A stretch of DNA of 64,000 nucleotides. Origin: Solobacterium sp. GTDB lineage: Bacteria > Bacillota_I > Bacilli_A > Erysipelotrichales > Erysipelotrichaceae. Shown piece after piece: positions 363-41,139 of the stretch. A program made the position numbers and the translations under genes. The stretch lies in contig JAFRJJ010000033.1 of the NCBI GenBank assembly GCA_017432325.1, forward strand, positions 1-64,000, in the 5' to 3' direction. Each line of letters opens with the position of its first letter. Position 1 is the stretch's first letter. The notes below the pieces were generated by a model. The model did not search any database and was not told the origin of the DNA. It worked only from the letters and a program-made list of their open reading frames with translations.

Positions 363-1589
363 ATGACATATGTATTTCATACTGACTGTGATCCCGCATT
401 GATGGATGCGTTTGTAATGCAGTCTGATCAGAATACTTTGTTCCAGTGTTCAGACTGGGCAAAGGTAAAAAACAACTGGCGGTCTTTTTTTACGTCTGTA
501 ACGGAAAATGATGAGATCGTCGGAACAGCGCTCGTATTGATGAGACAGCTGATTCCGGGAAGATATCTGATGTATATTCCCAGAGGTCCTGTGATTGATT
601 ACAGCAGAAAAGATCTTGTGCATTTCTATCTGGATGAGCTGAAAAAGTTTGCCAAAAAGCAGAAGGCTGCTGCTGTGAGGTTTGATCCGTGTGTACTGTA
701 CCGAAAGTACCCGTACCGTGACAGGAATGAGATCCATGAGATCCTGAACAGGAATGTTATCTATCTGCTGGAAGAATGCGGCGCTAAGCATAAGGGATTT
801 ACGACTATGATCGAAGAAGCCACACAGCCCCGTTTCAACGCGGAAATGGATGTGACTCCCGATTACAGAGATCACCTGGAACACCGGACCTCCAAGTGCA
901 TCAGGGCGGCCGAGCACAAAGGGATCGAACTGAGGGAAGGGATCGACCAGGTACACAACCTTGCTGTGGCGATGCATTATACGGAAGTCAGAAAACAGGT
1001 CGCACTGCGCGGAGAGGATTATTTCCGCAACATGATGGAAGTTTACGGGGACCGTGCCATCTGTATGACAGCTTCTTTGAATTTTGAAAAACAGCTGGAA
1101 AAACTGGAAGCCTCGATCGCTGATACAACAGCACAGCTGGAAGGCAAACTCAGCAAAAAGCAGAGGAATGCCCTGAACCAGACGCTTGCAAATGATACGA
1201 AGGAACTGGAAAAGCTGAAAGAAGACGCACAGCGTGAATCGGAGAATGAGATCATTACTTCCGGTATCCTTGCTGTATACAACGACAATCTGATGGAACT
1301 GTTCTATATGGGCAATCATCCGGATTATATGCGCATGTATTCCAGTTATCTGCTGTATGCCAAATGTCTGGATATCTGTGTTGAAAAGGGCATCCGGCAC
1401 TGCAGTTTCGGCGGTATTGAAGGCACGCTGGATGATGGTCTGACACTGTTTAAATCCAACTGGATCATGAATGTCGAAGAATACATCGGAGAATTCAATA
1501 TCGTTATTGATCCTGTCGTGTACAAACTGTTTGATGAAGTATATCCGATGGCACTGAAAACGGCCGCAAAACTGAGAGGCAGGAAATGA
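363..1589 (+). CDS. FemAB/MurM-like aminoacyltransferase (peptidoglycan bridge), paralogue 1
   Basis: A 408-residue protein of the FemA/FemX/MurM family, which in Gram-positive bacteria adds amino acids from aminoacyl-tRNA to the lysine side chain of lipid II or to nascent muropeptides. It shows two GNAT-like halves and, at about residues 240-293, a lysine/glutamate-rich stretch that fits the antiparallel helical arm typical of the family. The GNAT-like C-terminal half contains the pattern HCSFGGIEG near residue 345. An AAGGAGG ribosome site sits four bases before the ATG. It overlaps the next paralogue by four bases. The family call is firm; which amino acid and which bridge position is used cannot be read from the sequence. 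Confidence 0.88.
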   Translation: MTYVFHTDCDPALMDAFVMQSDQNTLFQCSDWAKVKNNWRSFFTSVTENDEIVGTALVLMRQLIPGRYLMYIPRGPVIDYSRKDLVHFYLDELKKFAKKQKAAAVRFDPCVLYRKYPYRDRNEIHEILNRNVIYLLEECGAKHKGFTTMIEEATQPRFNAEMDVTPDYRDHLEHRTSKCIRAAEHKGIELREGIDQVHNLAVAMHYTEVRKQVALRGEDYFRNMMEVYGDRAICMTASLNFEKQLEKLEASIADTTAQLEGKLSKKQRNALNQTLANDTKELEKLKEDAQRESENEIITSGILAVYNDNLMELFYMGNHPDYMRMYSSYLLYAKCLDICVEKGIRHCSFGGIEGTLDDGLTLFKSNWIMNVEEYIGEFNIVIDPVVYKLFDEVYPMALKTAAKLRGRK

Positions 1590-2857
1590 TGATGAAATTT
1601 GTTGATCATATCGATCCTGAGCGTTTTGACGCATTTGCCATGGCGCATCCCCTGAACCACTATTCAAAGACGAGCAGATTCATTGCGTTCAAACAGGATG
1701 AATACCAGTCCGGTGACCTGCTGGGCGTGGAAGATGAGAACGGGGAACTGATCGCCACAGCAGTCATGCTGCATAAGAAGACAAAGTTTCCATTCGGACA
1801 GTATTCCTATGTCCAGTACGGATTCAACCTGGATATAGAGAACAGGGAACTGATCTCGTTCTTCGCCCGTCATCTCAGGGAATACGCCAGATTCAGGGGT
1901 TCATTCCTGCTCCGTATGGATTTCAACATCACGCGTCTGGAACATGAAAAAGACGGCACGTTGAAGGAGAGCGGTTTCAATCACGAATATGTGACGGAAC
2001 TGCTGCAGAACGAAGGATACACACATCTTGGCTATAACTACGGCTACAGTGGAAACTGGATGAGCCGCTACACATACCGTCTTGATCTGGACCAGCCCTG
2101 GAAACAGGTGCTGAAGGGGATCAAGCGCTGCAGTACCTATGATTCCAAAAATCACCAGAGATGTGTGGAAGTCCGTCCGGGTACGATCGACGAACTGGAT
2201 ATCCTGGTAGACAGCGAAGAAGAGCTGAGCGAGAAGCTTGGCTTCCAGCCCAAGGATACGGACTATTTCCGCAGACTGTGGAAATGCTATGAACCGTATA
2301 TTCATTACTATGTCGTTGAAACGAACTTCCATCAGGCCAAACTGTCCCTGGAACGGCAGATCGCGGAGAATGAAGCGAAACTGGCGATCCTGAAGGATGA
2401 AAAGAAAAAGACCCCGCTTGAGCAGAGCAATACCGCCATGCACAAAGAGATCGGGGAGATCGTTGAACAGGGACTGGATGAAGATAAGACGATCCCGCTG
2501 GGAGCGAAGCTGATCATCATGCAGGGTGTGAATGTCTGGAATGTCAATATGTATACGAAGAAGACACTGATGAACTTCCGTGCCGCATTCGCGCTTCACA
2601 GATACGCGATCGAAGATCTTTACGGGCAGGGTGCGAAGACCTATGACTTTGAAGGCATTTCAGGTTCACTGGATCCAAATGATGAATATTACGGCCAGCA
2701 GGATTTCAAGAAAAGCTTCGGCGGTGACTTCCTTGAATTCCTGGGAGAATTCGATGCTGTCCTGGATGAGAAGAAATATCATGCATGGCTCAGAAACGAC
2801 CGCCTGTACCGCAGGGTCAGAAGAAAGGTCAGATACATACTCAATCACAAAAAATAG
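1586..2857 (+). CDS. FemAB/MurM-like aminoacyltransferase, paralogue 2
   Basis: A 423-residue paralogue of the preceding gene, translationally coupled to it through an ATGA overlap. It has the same bilobed GNAT-like plan with a charged helical arm at about residues 246-298, and the C-terminal TYDFEGISGS stretch corresponds to the conserved region of the family. Two co-transcribed family members usually mean sequential addition of residues to an interpeptide bridge (as FemA and FemB do); here that is inference. The gene ends inside a perfect palindrome shared with the convergent third paralogue. Confidence 0.88.
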   Translation: MMMKFVDHIDPERFDAFAMAHPLNHYSKTSRFIAFKQDEYQSGDLLGVEDENGELIATAVMLHKKTKFPFGQYSYVQYGFNLDIENRELISFFARHLREYARFRGSFLLRMDFNITRLEHEKDGTLKESGFNHEYVTELLQNEGYTHLGYNYGYSGNWMSRYTYRLDLDQPWKQVLKGIKRCSTYDSKNHQRCVEVRPGTIDELDILVDSEEELSEKLGFQPKDTDYFRRLWKCYEPYIHYYVVETNFHQAKLSLERQIAENEAKLAILKDEKKKTPLEQSNTAMHKEIGEIVEQGLDEDKTIPLGAKLIIMQGVNVWNVNMYTKKTLMNFRAAFALHRYAIEDLYGQGAKTYDFEGISGSLDPNDEYYGQQDFKKSFGGDFLEFLGEFDAVLDEKKYHAWLRNDRLYRRVRRKVRYILNHKK

Positions 2858-2875
2858 CAGGATCCTGCTATTTTT
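2850..2875. terminator. Bidirectional intrinsic terminator between convergent femAB genes
   Basis: A perfect 26-base palindrome centred on GATC, with A-tracts on the left and T-tracts on the right so that it works in both directions. The TAG stop of the + gene (2855-2857) and the TAG stop of the - gene (2868-2870) lie in its two arms. Confidence 0.9.
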
Positions 2876-4100
2876 GTTTCTTCTGATATCTGTATGCCCA
2901 GTATCTGCGCTTTACATGATTGACTGCCAGCTTTTCAAAGCGGAAGCGTTTCATCGCTCTGGTGCGGAACACATAATCGAATTCACCGATCTGTTCGATG
3001 AATTCCGGACCGAATGAACGTTTATACGCATACAGTCCGTAATACGGATCATCCTTTGAGGCAGTACCTGAGAATCCGCACATGTCGTATGTCAGCACAC
3101 CGTGTTCCTTCATGTCGTTCATGGCAAACGCATGCAGGTTGTCGACCGGCTTGATGAAGTTGAATTCCTTGTGATTGTATGTGTAGAGATCCCACGACAT
3201 ATGTCCCAGACGAATAAACAATCCGCATGCGATCGGCAGTTTTGACCCGTACTTCTGTTTCAGTCCGAATGCTTTTTCCAGCTCCTTTTCCTTGGCAGCA
3301 CGCGCTTCCGGATCTTTTTTATACTTTTTTGAAGCCAGCTCTGCTTCAATGCCGCTGATCATCGTATCCAGATCGATCTCTGTGACATAGATGACCGCAT
3401 GTTCTCCGAAGCTTTCCAGCAGTGCTTCGAAGAATTTCCTGGAATGCGGCTTGAATCCGTCCTGCTCACTGAGCTGGACTTCAAAGTCCATCAGGGAAGG
3501 CAGGTCATCCTTACTCCCGATACGGGTCGATACACCGATCACCGCATGCCTGTTGAGCGCTGTTTTTCTCGGCTTGGCGTAACCTGCAATGACATCCTTC
3601 ATGTCTTTATCCAGGTCAACGAACAATGTATATCTGTTTGTCCATGATCCGTTGTACGCGTAACCGTAGCCTTTATGGATATAGCCGAGTTTTTTCAGAT
3701 CCTCCGTGACACATTCATTGCTGAAACCATCGTCTACCAGTTCTCCGGTGATCGTATGATGGCAGCGTATAACATTCGGGTCAACGCGCAGGAACTGTAC
3801 CTGGTTCTTTTTCGCGTATTCCTTCAGCAGCCGGAACACTTCGTTTCTTACATGCTCATCCGTATAATCCATGCACGGTCCCCACGGAACATAGAGATAC
3901 CGGTGCAGCAGCCATGTATTCTTCAATACCATTGCTGTGGCTTTTAATTCATCATTCTCATAAAAACCAAGAAAGGATGGGGTGTCCCCATCCGTTATCC
4001 GTTTGAAGCGCGCCCACATAGCTGTTTTCATATAGTGAACATTACTGCTCTTTTCAACAAATGTATTCAGTGTGTTCTCTGATATGATGCGCATTTCCAT
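2868..4100 (-). CDS. FemAB/MurM-like aminoacyltransferase, paralogue 3
   Basis: A 410-residue FemA/MurM-family protein on the minus strand, convergent with paralogues 1 and 2. A lysine/glutamate-rich helical arm lies near residues 240-285, and the C-terminal TYDMCGFSGT matches the equivalent stretch of paralogue 2, to which it looks closest. A GGAG sits eight bases before its ATG and only two bases separate it from the gltX stop, so it is co-transcribed behind glutamyl-tRNA synthetase. That pairing is suggestive because FemAB enzymes consume charged tRNA, but it does not prove glutamate as the donor. Confidence 0.87.
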   Translation of the reverse strand: MEMRIISENTLNTFVEKSSNVHYMKTAMWARFKRITDGDTPSFLGFYENDELKATAMVLKNTWLLHRYLYVPWGPCMDYTDEHVRNEVFRLLKEYAKKNQVQFLRVDPNVIRCHHTITGELVDDGFSNECVTEDLKKLGYIHKGYGYAYNGSWTNRYTLFVDLDKDMKDVIAGYAKPRKTALNRHAVIGVSTRIGSKDDLPSLMDFEVQLSEQDGFKPHSRKFFEALLESFGEHAVIYVTEIDLDTMISGIEAELASKKYKKDPEARAAKEKELEKAFGLKQKYGSKLPIACGLFIRLGHMSWDLYTYNHKEFNFIKPVDNLHAFAMNDMKEHGVLTYDMCGFSGTASKDDPYYGLYAYKRSFGPEFIEQIGEFDYVFRTRAMKRFRFEKLAVNHVKRRYWAYRYQKKQK

Positions 4101-6752: not shown

Positions 6753-7355
6753 ATGAAAAACACAGAAGAAAAAGTAATCGTGGTAGCCAGCACGAATCAG
6801 GGAAAGATCCGTGAATTCCGTTCCATGCTTGAACCGGAAGGATATACGGTCAAATCACTGGCTGATCTGAAAGATATGCCGGAAATCGAAGAAAACGGCA
6901 TAACATTCGCTGAAAATGCCGTGATCAAGGCACAGTCCGTAACGGATTATTACGGCATCGAAGCGATCTCGGATGACTCAGGTCTGGAGATCGATGCGTT
7001 TGACAGACAGCCGGGTGTACACAGTGCCAGATATCTCGGTCATGATACACCGTACAGCTATAAGAACCAGGTGATCCTGGAAAAGATGAAGGGTATTGAA
7101 AACAGGACCTGCAGATATGTCTGCGCGATCGCGTGGACTGCACCCGGCAGGGAACCTGCAGTGTTTGAAGACACAGTCGAATGTGAGATTGCATATGAAC
7201 CCAGAGGAAACAACGGGTTCGGGTACGATCCGATCATCTGGTATCCGCCGTTCAATAAAACAATGGCGGAAATGACAGATGAAGAAAAGAACAGCATATC
7301 CCATCGCGGCAAAGCGATCAGGAAGCTGGAGGCATGGATGGATGAGAGGAAATAA
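6753..7355 (+). CDS. rdgB: dITP/XTP pyrophosphatase (RdgB/HAM1 family)
   Basis: A 200-residue non-canonical purine NTP pyrophosphatase that removes dITP and XTP from the nucleotide pool. The N-terminal ASTNQGKIREF nucleotide-binding motif, the SDDSGLEID motif and the C-terminal SHRGKA motif are all present and length is normal. No Shine-Dalgarno sequence precedes 6753, and TATAAT lies seven bases upstream, so the mRNA may be leaderless. The next gene starts inside its 3' end, so the two are coupled. Confidence 0.94.
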   Translation: MKNTEEKVIVVASTNQGKIREFRSMLEPEGYTVKSLADLKDMPEIEENGITFAENAVIKAQSVTDYYGIEAISDDSGLEIDAFDRQPGVHSARYLGHDTPYSYKNQVILEKMKGIENRTCRYVCAIAWTAPGREPAVFEDTVECEIAYEPRGNNGFGYDPIIWYPPFNKTMAEMTDEEKNSISHRGKAIRKLEAWMDERK

Positions 7356-8019
7356 GTTTTTAGCGGCAGCAGCGTCTTTCCTGCTTACACTGGCAGGTCT
7401 TTTGTCGGTCGTTGATGTACTGTGCTTTGACCGTGGATTTTACACAAAGGAATATGAGAAGAACGGTACTGCTGAATATATGCAGATGAGTGATGAAGAT
7501 CTCGAACATACAACAGATGTGCTGCTTGCATATCTGAAGGATGAACGTGACGACCTGATCGTAACAGCTGTTGTGGACGGGAAGGAACGTGAAGTGTTCG
7601 ATATGCGTGAAACACTGCATATGGAAGATGTCAAGAAGCTGTATCAGAATGCCATGACTTTCCGTACGGCTGCAGCATTGATAGGCGCGGTGCTGCTGTG
7701 TGCTGTGCTGTATGGCGCCGAACAGAAAAGGGCGCTCATGAAATCCGGTTTTCAGGCAGGGGTCATTCTGATCCTGGCGCTGATCTCCGCGCTGACAATA
7801 TGGGCAGCCATTGATTTCAATGCGTTCTGGATACAGTTCCACGAAGTATTCTTTGACAATGACCTGTATCTGCTGGATCCGCGTACGGAACTCCTGATCC
7901 GGATGGTTCCGGAACAGTTCTTCTATGATCTTGTGATGCGCATCGTGATCGGATTCTTCGGACTCCTGGCGGTCACAGCAGGACTGCTCTGGTTTCTGCC
8001 CGAGAGGAAGACAGTATGA
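7342..8019 (+). CDS. TIGR01906-type integral membrane protein
   Basis: A 225-residue membrane protein with four predicted transmembrane segments: one at the N-terminus (from about residue 6), two in the middle and one near the C-terminus. The stretch FWIQFHEVFFDND followed by LLDPRTELLIRMVPEQFF is characteristic of the family once called lactobacillus integral membrane protein TIGR01906. Function is unknown. The start at 7342 has GGAGG nine bases upstream inside rdgB; a longer start at 7279 would overlap rdgB by 77 bases. The gene overlaps trmL by four bases. Confidence 0.8.
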   Translation: MRGNKFLAAAASFLLTLAGLLSVVDVLCFDRGFYTKEYEKNGTAEYMQMSDEDLEHTTDVLLAYLKDERDDLIVTAVVDGKEREVFDMRETLHMEDVKKLYQNAMTFRTAAALIGAVLLCAVLYGAEQKRALMKSGFQAGVILILALISALTIWAAIDFNAFWIQFHEVFFDNDLYLLDPRTELLIRMVPEQFFYDLVMRIVIGFFGLLAVTAGLLWFLPERKTV

Positions 8020-23020: not shown

Positions 23021-23047
23021 TACCGTAATACTACTGACCGTAAATAG

Positions 23048-23080
23048 GGAAAGTCTGGATACACAGGCTTTCCTTTTCTT
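23048..23080 (+). terminator. Terminator of the two-component operon
   Basis: GGAAAG-T-CTG pairs with CAG-G-CTTTCC, one G-T pair, then a T-rich tract. Confidence 0.8.
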
Positions 23081-23276: not shown

Positions 23277-23320
23277 GAATACAGTATTCCAATGAAAAAG
23301 ATAATTCAGGAGGATAATCT

Positions 23321-25138
23321 ATGAAAATACTGTTTGTGACGAGTGAATGCGCTCCGTTCTCAAAATCAGGCGGTCTGGCAGATGTTGCTTTTTCACTGCC
23401 GCCTGCTTTATTGAGAGAAGGTAATGAGATCATGATCATTACTCCTTACTACAAGTGTGTGAAGGACAGATTCTCTGACAAAGTTGAATATGTCATGAAC
23501 CGCAATGTGCGGCTTGGCAATGCGGACCTTTACTGCGGACTGCTCAAGGGTGAACTCTCAGGCGTACCTGTATGGTTCATTGACAATGAAGCATTGTTCT
23601 ACAGAGACAAGCTTTACGGATACGACGATGATAAATTCCGCTTTGCATGGTTCTCAAAGGCAGTCATCGATGTACTGGAAAACCTGGATTTCATCCCGGA
23701 GATCCTGCACTGCAATGACTGGGAAACAGCATTGAGCGTCATCTATCTGAAAGACGACCAGGCACGCAGACCTGATTACAGAAATATCCGCACGGTATAT
23801 ACGATCCATAATATCGCTTACCAGGGACAGTTCGGCGCGAATGAACTGTCAGATACATTTGCCCTGGATCCGGGCTGGTATGACGGCGGCCTTGGTTATG
23901 TATATCATGGCAGGCATGATGTCAACCTCATGAAAGGCGCAATGCTGATGGCGGATGCGGTATCCACCGTATCACCGACTTACGCAAGGGAACTTCATAC
24001 ACCGCAGTTCGGCAAGGGACTGGAAGGTGTGTGCGATATGATCGAATCCAAGATGTACGGTATCCTGAACGGCATTGATCCCGCGCACTATGATCCGGGC
24101 AAGGATCCCCGTATTCCCTGCAATTTCACTCCCGACGACAAGTCAGGCAAGATGGTTTGCAAAGAATATATCCAGGAAACATTCGGTCTGAAGAAAGAAA
24201 AGAACTGGCCGCTGTTTGCTGTTGTCGCGAGACTTGTTGAACAGAAGGGCGTTGAACTGATCAGGGAGATCCTGCCCAGAATGATGAAGAAGGGCATCCA
24301 GCTCGTCATCTTCGGACAGGGCGAGAAGAAATACGTTGATTACTTCAATCACTGCAAAGAACTCTATCCGGGACAGTTCGGATTCTCCGATCAGTATACG
24401 GAAGAGATGGCAGCCAAAGTATTTGCCGGAGCCGACTTTTACCTGATGCCTTCCGCATTTGAACCGTGCGGACTCTCCCAGATGATGGCAATGCGCTACG
24501 GCACAGTCCCGATCGTACATGAAACCGGCGGACTAAAGGATACAGTCAGACCTTATTCCGACTTTGACGGGATCGGTGACGGCTTCTCATTCGACAGCTA
24601 TCAGGGCAAAGCGCTGATGCTGGCTATCGATGCAGCCATCAAGATCTATTTCGGTGAGCATGATGTATTTGAAGTCATTAAAGACAGATGCATGAGGAAA
24701 GACTTCTCGTGGACAAAGTCAGCTATGACATATATGAAGATGTATTCCGATATCTGCGGACATGGTTCCGACCCGAACGTTACATTCAAGGATGCGTATG
24801 ATGCGCTGGAAGTTGTCTATACCGATCTGGAGGAGCTGCGCAATCAGTATCTTGCTATGATGCCGGATGATTATCTGAATGTATGCCAGATCAGGATCGA
24901 AGGACCGGGCGAAGGCACATTCTATCTGAAGTTTACAAAAGCCGGCATGGAAATGGCGCCTTACAATTATGAAGGAGCTGATATCAATATTGCCGCAAGC
25001 TTTGACAATCTCTACAATATGGCGATCGGTACCGTTTCTGCCGATAAACTGTTTGTCAACGGACAGATGAAGGTGGAAGGCAACATTTCCAAAGGCGCTG
25101 AAATGCGTTATCTGATCGGCAGGGGCATGGAACGCTGA
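23321..25138 (+). CDS. glgA: Glycogen synthase with C-terminal SCP2-like domain
   Basis: ADP-glucose-dependent glycosyltransferase (GT5) that extends alpha-1,4-glucan. KSGGLADV near residue 15 binds ADP-glucose, and EPCGLSQM with the following GGLKDTV is the second active-site region; the catalytic part occupies about residues 1-480, the normal full length. A further 125 residues follow. Their last 90 fit the SCP2 sterol-carrier fold: an FYLKF strand, a GADINIAASFDNL segment and a KLFVNGQMKVEGN segment. No other glycogen gene (glgB, glgC, glgP) is nearby. The gene has its own promoter and terminator. Confidence 0.93.
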   Translation: MKILFVTSECAPFSKSGGLADVAFSLPPALLREGNEIMIITPYYKCVKDRFSDKVEYVMNRNVRLGNADLYCGLLKGELSGVPVWFIDNEALFYRDKLYGYDDDKFRFAWFSKAVIDVLENLDFIPEILHCNDWETALSVIYLKDDQARRPDYRNIRTVYTIHNIAYQGQFGANELSDTFALDPGWYDGGLGYVYHGRHDVNLMKGAMLMADAVSTVSPTYARELHTPQFGKGLEGVCDMIESKMYGILNGIDPAHYDPGKDPRIPCNFTPDDKSGKMVCKEYIQETFGLKKEKNWPLFAVVARLVEQKGVELIREILPRMMKKGIQLVIFGQGEKKYVDYFNHCKELYPGQFGFSDQYTEEMAAKVFAGADFYLMPSAFEPCGLSQMMAMRYGTVPIVHETGGLKDTVRPYSDFDGIGDGFSFDSYQGKALMLAIDAAIKIYFGEHDVFEVIKDRCMRKDFSWTKSAMTYMKMYSDICGHGSDPNVTFKDAYDALEVVYTDLEELRNQYLAMMPDDYLNVCQIRIEGPGEGTFYLKFTKAGMEMAPYNYEGADINIAASFDNLYNMAIGTVSADKLFVNGQMKVEGNISKGAEMRYLIGRGMER

Positions 25139-25159: not shown

Positions 25160-25198
25160 AAAAGGACATATGGCCGTATTGAACCATATGTCTTTTGT
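25160..25198. terminator. Bidirectional terminator between glgA and the TetR gene
   Basis: GACATATGG and CCATATGTC are perfectly complementary around a ten-base loop, with A-rich sequence on the left and T-rich on the right. Confidence 0.85.
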
Positions 25199-38979: not shown

Positions 38980-40039
38980 GAAACGCACGCTGAAGGTGGG
39001 CAGGATACTGTTGCTTCTGCTGATCGTACTGCTGGCAGTATGCGGTGTCCTCTTCCATAACTATAAGAAGGCACTCAAGCCTGCGCAGGAGCTTGGTGAG
39101 AATGTTTTGTTCACCGTTAACCAGGGAGAATCGGCTAAAATAGTCGCATCAAATCTGGAAAAAGCAGGACTGATCAACGACGCAGGATACAGCTACCTGT
39201 ATGTCAGGATGAATGAGCTGACGGATGTCAAAGCAGGTGATTATCTGCTGGATCCTACATGGGATACCGATCAGATCTTCCGGACGCTGAATGACCCGCT
39301 TGCGGCGATCGTTGATGAAGCGATCGTAACGATCATCGAGGGTGACTGGGCGAAGCATATCGCATCCAAGATCGGCGACCAGACCAAGGTGACTGCGGAG
39401 GAACTGCTGAAGCTTTGGAATGATGAGTCCTATGTCAGGTCCCTGATGGACCGCTATCCGTTCCTGACGGAGGATATGTTCGATGATGATGTCAGGATCC
39501 TTCTGGAAGGATATCTGGCACCGAATACGTACCGTTTCTTCAGGGATACGACCGCTGAGGAAGTGACCGAGAAGATCCTGGATGAATCCCTGAACGTATA
39601 CAACAAGTATGCTTCACAGATGAAAAAGTCCGATCTGAATATCCATGAGCTGTATACACTGGCATCGATCATCCAGTATGAATCCGGACTGCCGGAGGAT
39701 ATGAAGAAGATCGCCGGAGTATTCTATAACCGCATGAAGACGGATATGCCGCTGCAGTCCAGTGTTACGGTCTGCTATGCGCTGGATATCACACAGGATG
39801 ATAACTGGCAGGCATGTGAAATGAATCCGACATTTGACTCCCCATACAACACATACAAGTATATGGGACTGCCTCCGGGACCGATCGAGAACCCCGGTGC
39901 CGAGGCGATCAATGCCGTACTGAATCCCGCAAAGCATGATTATTATTTCTTCATGGCTGACGTATACGGGGACGGTACAGTCTATTACGCGAAGACATTG
40001 GAAGAACATGAGGCCAATGTCGATAAGTACCTGAGATGA
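38966..40039 (+). CDS. mltG: Endolytic murein transglycosylase
   Basis: A 357-residue membrane-anchored lytic transglycosylase that cuts nascent glycan strands. One transmembrane helix occupies residues 11-33; the catalytic domain has the conserved [10 protein letters not shown] with its Glu and PLQSSVTV, then the YNTY stretch followed by GLPPGPI near the C-terminus. The ATG at 38966 follows an AGGAAG stretch; an in-frame TTG at 38945 is less plausible. It overlaps the Nudix start by four bases. Confidence 0.94.
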
Positions 40040-41139
40040 TCTGCAGTACACAGGCATATCTGATCCGTGACGGCAAATGGCTGATGCTGCTGAGGAACAA
40101 AAAGCAGAATGATGTCAATGAAGGAAAATGGATCGGAGTCGGAGGAAAATTCGAACCGGGTGAAACACCCGAACAGTGCGTGAAGCGTGAGATCCGTGAA
40201 GAGACCGGTTACGAAGCGGGAGCGCTTGAATATGCGGGGATGCTTGATTTCATCTATGAAGGTGTTGAGAGCGAACGGATCTGGGTCTATACATGCAGTG
40301 ATTTCAGCGGTCAGGAGACAGAGTGTACAGAAGGTACGCTCGCCTGGATTGACGAAGCAAAGATCATGGACCTGAATCTGTGGGAAGGCGACAGGATCTA
40401 TCTCAGACAGATGCTTGAGCACAGTCATGAGCAGTTTCTTCTGCGGCTGACGTATGATTCTGACGGACAGCTTACAGAAGCAGTGAATATCAAAACGGAG
40501 GTTGGCATGGAAAAGCCTATTATTATCGGTATTGCCGGAGGAAGTGCTTCCGGAAAAACTACGATCGCCAGAAGGATTCAGGAAACATTCTCCGACCGGA
40601 AATCTGTACTGATCATCCGTCAGGATGACTATTATAAGGATCAGTCAGACAAGCCGATGGAAGAGCGCATCAAGACGAATTACGATCATCCGTTCGCGTT
40701 TGACAATGATCTGCTGATGGAGCATCTGAAAGAACTTCTGAGCGGCAAAACGATCCGCAAACCGACCTATGATTTTGTAAATCACACAAGAAGCGACATT
40801 ACGGAACTGTGCCATCCGGCGGATGTCATCGTTCTGGAAGGACTGTTCGTACTGGAAGATGAACGTCTGCGTGAATTTGAGTCGATCAAGATCTTTGTAG
40901 ATACTGCCGCTGATATCCGTTTCATCAGACGTCTTCTCAGAGACGTCAACGAGCGCGGCAGGACAGTTGATTCCGTTGTCAACCAGTATGTCAGTACCGT
41001 GCGTGTGATGCATGAACAGTTTATCGAACCGAGCAAGCGCTATGCGGATATCATTATTCCAGAAGGCGGCTCAAATCAGGTTGCGATCGATCTGCTGGTT
41101 ACAAAAATCAGTAGCGTCATACATCACACAATGTTATAA
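40036..41139 (+). CDS. udk: Nudix hydrolase fused in frame to uridine kinase
   Basis: One 367-residue frame with two enzymes. Residues 1-152 form a MutT/8-oxo-dGTPase-like Nudix domain with a perfect Nudix box (G37 through E43 to R51-E52, E55-E56 and G58). After five residues comes Met158 and a complete uridine kinase: [10 protein letters not shown]-loop, RQDDYYKD and the RDVNERGRT segment; it phosphorylates uridine and cytidine. No stop codon divides them, yet GGAGG at 40497-40501 lies five bases before the Met158 codon (40507), so separate kinase could also be made. In Bacillus udk is a separate gene before greA. A sequencing or annotation artefact at the junction is possible but no indel was found. 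Confidence 0.88.
40497..40509 (+). promoter_or_regulatory. Internal ribosome site and start codon for stand-alone uridine kinase
   Basis: GGAGG, five bases, ATG, inside the Nudix-kinase frame and exactly at the normal N-terminus of uridine kinase. It suggests that the kinase is made both as a fusion and alone. Confidence 0.6.

Follow-up and report, generated by a model that had tools for sequence, protein, structure and literature searches.

Glycogen synthases are usually regarded as soluble enzymes that use carbohydrate primers. The locus described here raises the question of why a rumen bacterium, Solobacterium sp., encodes a glycogen synthase whose reading frame runs on into a domain of the lipid-binding SCP2 type, and what such a tail would do. 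The window, a stretch of 64,000 nucleotides (contig JAFRJJ010000033.1, positions 1 to 64,000), contains this gene, glgA-SCP2, with the following features.

23046..23075, + strand: hairpin resembling a terminator, 3' of the histidine kinase gene that lies upstream and parting that gene from glgA-SCP2 (consensus match only)
23308..23313, + strand: ribosome-binding site AGGAGG, 7 bases 5' of the ATG of glgA-SCP2 (read from the sequence)
23321..25138, + strand: fused glycogen synthase gene GlgA-SCP2, 605 aa, ATG start (ORF reading, Pfam, TIGR02095, fused homologues)
23321..24754, + strand: GT5 catalytic region, residues 1-478 (PF08323 and PF00534, TIGR02095, alignment to 2qzs/3d1j, Foldseek)
24755..24784, + strand: short variable linker, residues 479-488 (pLDDT <50 at 481-485)
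24785..24853, + strand: two N-terminal helices of the SCP2 domain, residues 489-511, motif FxxAxxxLxxxY (AlphaFold2 secondary structure, conserved columns)
24875..25117, + strand: SCP2 core, residues 519-599, with strands, crossing helices, the G-Q-[ML]-K-V-x-G-N motif and a C-terminal helix (Pfam, structure profile, AlphaFold2, Foldseek)
24881-25105, + strand: Pfam SCP2 match, residues 521-595 (PF02036)
25165..25192: hairpin bearing T-runs on each strand, located between glgA-SCP2 and a convergent TetR-type gene, a probable two-way terminator

An earlier sequence-only reading had proposed a complete GT5 glycogen synthase over about residues 1-480, and this is borne out by residues 1-478, which cover the full GlgA model TIGR02095 (513.8 bits against a cut-off of 328.45, residues 1-477 of 605). 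When aligned to 2qzs/3d1j, residues K15, H163, R304, K309 and E381 of the window protein correspond to K15, H161, R300, K305 and E377 of E. coli GlgA, and all five are invariant across 30 fused homologues. The full-length AlphaFold2 model has a pLDDT of 84.5, and Foldseek superimposes its GT5 part on E. coli GlgA 3cop with a TM of 0.86 by target length. The protein thus has the catalytic fold, the active-site residues and the catalytic-part length of bacterial GlgA (GT5; E. coli 2qzs/3cop, TIGR02095) at 33% identity. Because all catalytic residues are present and invariant, GlgA-SCP2 is likely to be a working ADP-glucose-type alpha-1,4-glucan synthase. It differs from known GlgA in what follows: known enzymes end at about residue 477, once the C-terminal helix is complete, whereas GlgA-SCP2 adds about 120 residues of SCP2.

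The identity of this tail rests on agreement between profile searches and structure prediction. The PF02036 SCP2 model matches the whole protein with 36.3 bits and the tail alone with 40.2 bits (E=4.6e-10), in both cases above the gathering cut-off of 21.3, and the tail is the only SCP2 match in its genome. A profile built from 34 tail rows matches the solved SCP2 structures 4jgx (E=2.9e-10) and 1c44 (E=7.7e-9). The AlphaFold2 model of the tail (mean pLDDT 84, pTM 0.76) consists of two helices, strands at positions 45-53, 58-65, 68-72, 81-86 and 109-113, and a C-terminal helix. In Foldseek, its 45 best matches all have the SCP2 fold or contain an SCP2-like domain, with E values of about 1e-5 to 1e-6 and TM scores of 0.5-0.65 for the SCP2 structures; those from the PDB include UbiJ and the SCP2-like end domains of alkylsulfatases. 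The sequence-only reading had already assigned the tail to SCP2, and we found that it scores to no other known fold. It had also placed the tail's first base at 24771; the tail is real but that coordinate is one base off, as the codon of residue 484 begins at 24770. With its two N-terminal helices the SCP2 domain spans residues 489-599, and confidence in the full-length model dips at the junction only at residues 481-485, in keeping with a short linker. A carbohydrate-binding module was also considered as the identity of the tail, and no match to one appeared in Pfam, NCBIfam, PDB sequence or fold searches.

The tail has the fold, the preceding helices and the signature G-[KQ]-[ML]-K-V-x-G-N of PF02036 proteins such as Yarrowia SCP2 (4jgx), rabbit SCP2 (1c44) and UbiJ (6h6p). 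It differs from them in being fused to a glycosyltransferase and in two residues, Q523 and R596, that are nearly invariant among the fused proteins and not common to stand-alone clostridial SCP2 proteins; these fusion-specific positions could mark an interface between the GT5 and SCP2 domains. At 34 of the 128 tail columns, 90% or more of the family has a hydrophobic residue, which would suit either a pocket or a core. UbiT and UbiJ, the accessory factors of ubiquinone synthesis (NF047962), are also bacterial SCP2 proteins, and they serve enzymes by holding a hydrophobic intermediate. GlgA-SCP2 belongs to a different pathway, and against the UbiT model it reaches 26.7 bits, below the equivalog cut-off of 46.9.

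The fused frame is not an isolated event. Among the best 80 of 174 relatives retrieved from about 85,000 species genomes, all 80 encode the two-domain protein at 58-97% identity, with matches reaching residue 595 or beyond. Their sources, at least 80 gut bacteria from two phyla, are Erysipelotrichaceae, Anaerolineae and several clostridial groups, and the records derive from many assemblies and from cattle, goat, sheep, deer, buffalo, horse, rabbit and other hosts. When 78 homologous ORFs were aligned to the window protein, the tail followed GlgA in every one, at a uniform length of 600-627 aa. Chance or artefact is an unlikely source of such a frame. Within the Erysipelotrichaceae set (87 usable pairs) dN/dS for the tail has a median of 0.12 and a maximum of 0.20, compared with 0.08 for the catalytic part, values that are rough because dS is near saturation. 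By these estimates (dN/dS about 0.12) the tail is under purifying selection. It varies more than the catalytic half, with a mean top-residue frequency of 0.59 vs 0.77.

The fusion was scarce in evenly drawn samples of genomes, from which the centre genome was left out each time. None of 197 Bacilli, 390 Clostridia or 198 Anaerolineae carried the fused tail; it turned up in 1 of 120 genomes of one clostridial order, and in 7 of 99 genomes of one family as against 0 of 100 of another; all seven carriers from the family sample proved to encode full GlgA-SCP2, 55-61% identical. Within the window's genus 10 of 24 genomes carry it. These counts indicate a rare and patchy fusion. The sequence-only reading had named a tail common in ordinary GlgA as a refutation of its proposal; we find the tail to be rare in the survey, and the genome's own canonical GlgA lacks it. 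Across all genomes surveyed, matches to the tail profile above 100 bits lie only within frames of at least 600 aa and never in stand-alone proteins, and stand-alone clostridial SCP2 proteins reach at most 72 bits.

Carriers of the fusion nearly always have a second GlgA, of which GlgA-SCP2 is the paralogue. The window's genome encodes a canonical GlgA, 38% identical to the fusion, as part of a glgC-glgD-glgA operon (contig C31), together with two glgB (branching enzyme) genes on contigs C31 and C82. As these genes are also present, we consider the fusion to be an extra enzyme and not the housekeeping one. A further GlgA was found in 12 of 13 other carrier genomes, although two of these are only contig-end fragments, and the one carrier genome in which it was not found is 0.9 Mb and probably incomplete. 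The fusion gene itself stands alone as a single gene in the window, with a two-component system upstream and a TetR-type regulator downstream that points towards it. That no other glycogen genes lie nearby, as had been noted from the sequence, holds for the 34 other window ORFs scanned with Pfam. A position outside a glg operon is compatible with membership of the GlgA family, for which an operon setting is not required, but it separates the fusion from the housekeeping copy. No neighbour is conserved across the whole fused family, and from clade to clade the flanks are mostly different.

Trees built from either half are consistent with a single fusion that later spread horizontally. In the maximum-likelihood tree of the catalytic part the fused rows all lie on one side of a 100/100 branch, which makes GlgA-SCP2 a clade distinct from canonical GlgA. 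Nested in the Clostridia in this tree are the Anaerolineae rows L078 and L093, beside L092, and also the Erysipelotrichaceae group with two other Bacilli-type genomes. In the SCP2 tree a 100/98 branch parts fused from stand-alone tails, except for two stand-alone rows (L127 and L129) that were wrongly trimmed and are disregarded. The exact order of transfers is unsure because many inner forks are weak. With regard to vehicles, the tail had no match in phages, and among the plasmid matches listed there was no fused copy above 60% identity, the best of them ending at residue 479-480.

The nearest relatives of the tail that we found outside the fusion are stand-alone clostridial SCP2 proteins (L125, L130, L132, L135), which have in common with it a GEGxFY...EPYxYxDxDA motif and 30% identity over 77 residues. 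Unlike the fused tail, these proteins carry no GlgA, and several have a Lys/Ala-rich C-terminal tail. Long tails of this kind were seen in L125:1501-2001, L127, L129, L131, L132 and L133, and their make-up resembles that of the tails of granule-binding or DNA-binding proteins. In L126:1492-2355 (- strand, 288 aa) a GNAT acetyltransferase is followed by a stand-alone-type SCP2 in one frame, possibly another SCP2 fusion or else a read-through of two genes.

Hydrophobic small molecules are substrates for glucosylation by GT1 enzymes of the MGT type. A gene of this type lies directly 5' of the GlgA-SCP2 gene in 12 clostridial loci (L101:4750-5925, L076:198-1376, L083, L055, L054, L066, L068, L069, L072, L075, L094, L099), and these GT1 genes score 279-313 bits with TIGR01426 (MGT; cut-off 260). 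The gap to the fusion gene is 31-120 bases at ten loci and 1059 at L054, and the GT1 copy of L099 is truncated. The 12 loci sit at four places of the GlgA tree. Pairwise identities of GT1 and of GlgA-SCP2 correlate closely (r=0.88, Mantel p=0.0001, 10 loci), which suggests that the two genes co-diverge as genes inherited together would. No GT1 gene lies beside the window gene, at 27 Erysipelotrichaceae-type loci or in 7 further relatives. In most genomes that lack a linked GT1 no orthologue was found elsewhere, only distant MGTs at 27-43% identity, one of which, at 31%, is in the window's genome. The upstream GT1 gene therefore provides circumstantial support for a hydrophobic acceptor, and this support is not decisive because GT1 is missing next to the window gene and from most family members.

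What, then, would the tail do? The sequence-only reading is fully borne out in its identification of GT5 GlgA plus SCP2, but the functions it suggested, membrane or lipid-linked glucan synthesis or a fold reused as an anchor, keep the status of conjecture. We tentatively favour, at a little under an even chance, an extra GlgA whose SCP2 domain holds a hydrophobic ligand, for acceptor delivery or for control by lipid, and which serves a separate glucan pool. The SCP2 module, placed after the last GT5 helix, would hold a fatty acyl, isoprenoid or glycolipid ligand; that ligand would recruit the synthase to an acceptor that is hydrophobic or bound to a membrane, or the lipid would set its activity, and the product would be a glucan pool apart from bulk glycogen. 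In the clades with GT1, a hydrophobic aglycone would receive glucose from that enzyme and be held by GlgA-SCP2 as the latter extends the sugar. A hydrophobic ligand or acceptor is favoured because SCP2 domains hold lipids or hydrophobic intermediates and, in ubiquinone synthesis, also scaffold enzyme complexes (PMC6747719), taken together with the chemistry of MGT-type GT1 enzymes; the step from an SCP2 pocket to this function is one that we infer. Against it stand the lack of a neighbour conserved family-wide, the absence of GT1 at the loci named above, the fact that SCP2 also serves as a protein-protein scaffold, and the range of MGT-type GT1 enzymes, whose glucosylation targets also include drugs and other small molecules. 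A glycogen synthase with a built-in lipid-binding fold beside the normal enzyme suggests a lipid-linked alpha-glucan or lipid-controlled glucan storage, and either would concern common rumen and gut bacteria. A lipid-dependent alpha-glucan synthase proper, in which GT1 where present would prime a hydrophobic carrier and the SCP2 pocket would hold that carrier during alpha-1,4 extension, seems to us quite unlikely; if true, rumen and gut Firmicutes and Anaerolineae would make a lipid-linked or membrane-tethered glucan distinct from glycogen.

The scaffold role of SCP2 leads to a different reading, in which a fold without lipid has been reused as an oligomerization, partner-docking or glucan-granule anchor that would separate this GlgA from the housekeeping copy. 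UbiJ, whose SCP2 domain organises a multi-enzyme complex (PMC6747719), offers a precedent, and both the greater variability of the tail and the near-invariance of Q523 and R596 in fused proteins only, as an interface to GT5 predicts, are consistent with it. We nevertheless regard it as somewhat unlikely, as pure docking would not fully need the generic SCP2 core and hydrophobic columns that have been kept, and the family has no conserved partner gene. A lipid-sensing switch would leave the chemistry ordinary: the enzyme would make ordinary glycogen from ordinary primers, and a fatty acid, acyl-CoA or other lipid in the SCP2 domain would tune its rate up or down, so that glucan storage would be tied to lipid state. 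The full glycogen pathway in the genome, which makes the ADP-glucose substrate available, and the binding of acyl chains by SCP2 domains (a C16 fatty acid in 1pz4) speak for such a switch. Its probability is nonetheless rather low, given that linkage of the fusion to a regulatory or lipid gene is not seen across the loci. GlgC is the canonical control point of ADP-glucose synthesis, which also argues against it. A neutral or misassembled fusion that has no function is refuted by conservation and its probability is negligible: the same junction recurs in the best 80 of 174 relatives, in independent records from many assemblies, with low dN/dS and a spread across two phyla.

No description of SCP2 fused to GlgA or starch synthase was found in open-access full text, although InterPro-type databases may list the combination uncommented, and the part of a 2024 review of prokaryotic alpha-glucan enzymes available to us makes no mention of a sterol carrier. 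GlgA-SCP2 is thus a real, conserved architecture made from two known parts that apparently lacks a description in the literature.

Several smaller observations were made alongside. Six fused proteins (L038, L040, L045, L062, L078, L090) have a Lys/Arg-rich C-terminal extension of 15-24 residues, 7-11 of them basic, which the window protein lacks. The unfused GlgA of one carrier genome (L120, G242:C47:9520-10950) lies in a 639-aa frame with a basic end, KPKRAPRKKKTETAE, an unrelated extension. Elsewhere in the window, positions 363-4100 hold three adjacent FemAB-family genes (two on the + and one on the - strand) beside glutamyl-tRNA synthetase, which are peptidoglycan cross-bridge or tRNA-dependent amino-acid transfer genes. 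A homologue of Lit (lipoprotein intramolecular transacylase; PF07314, 143.9 bits) lies at 7279-8019, and positions 40036-41139 encode a 367-aa protein in which a NUDIX domain is fused with a uridine kinase-type (PRK) domain.
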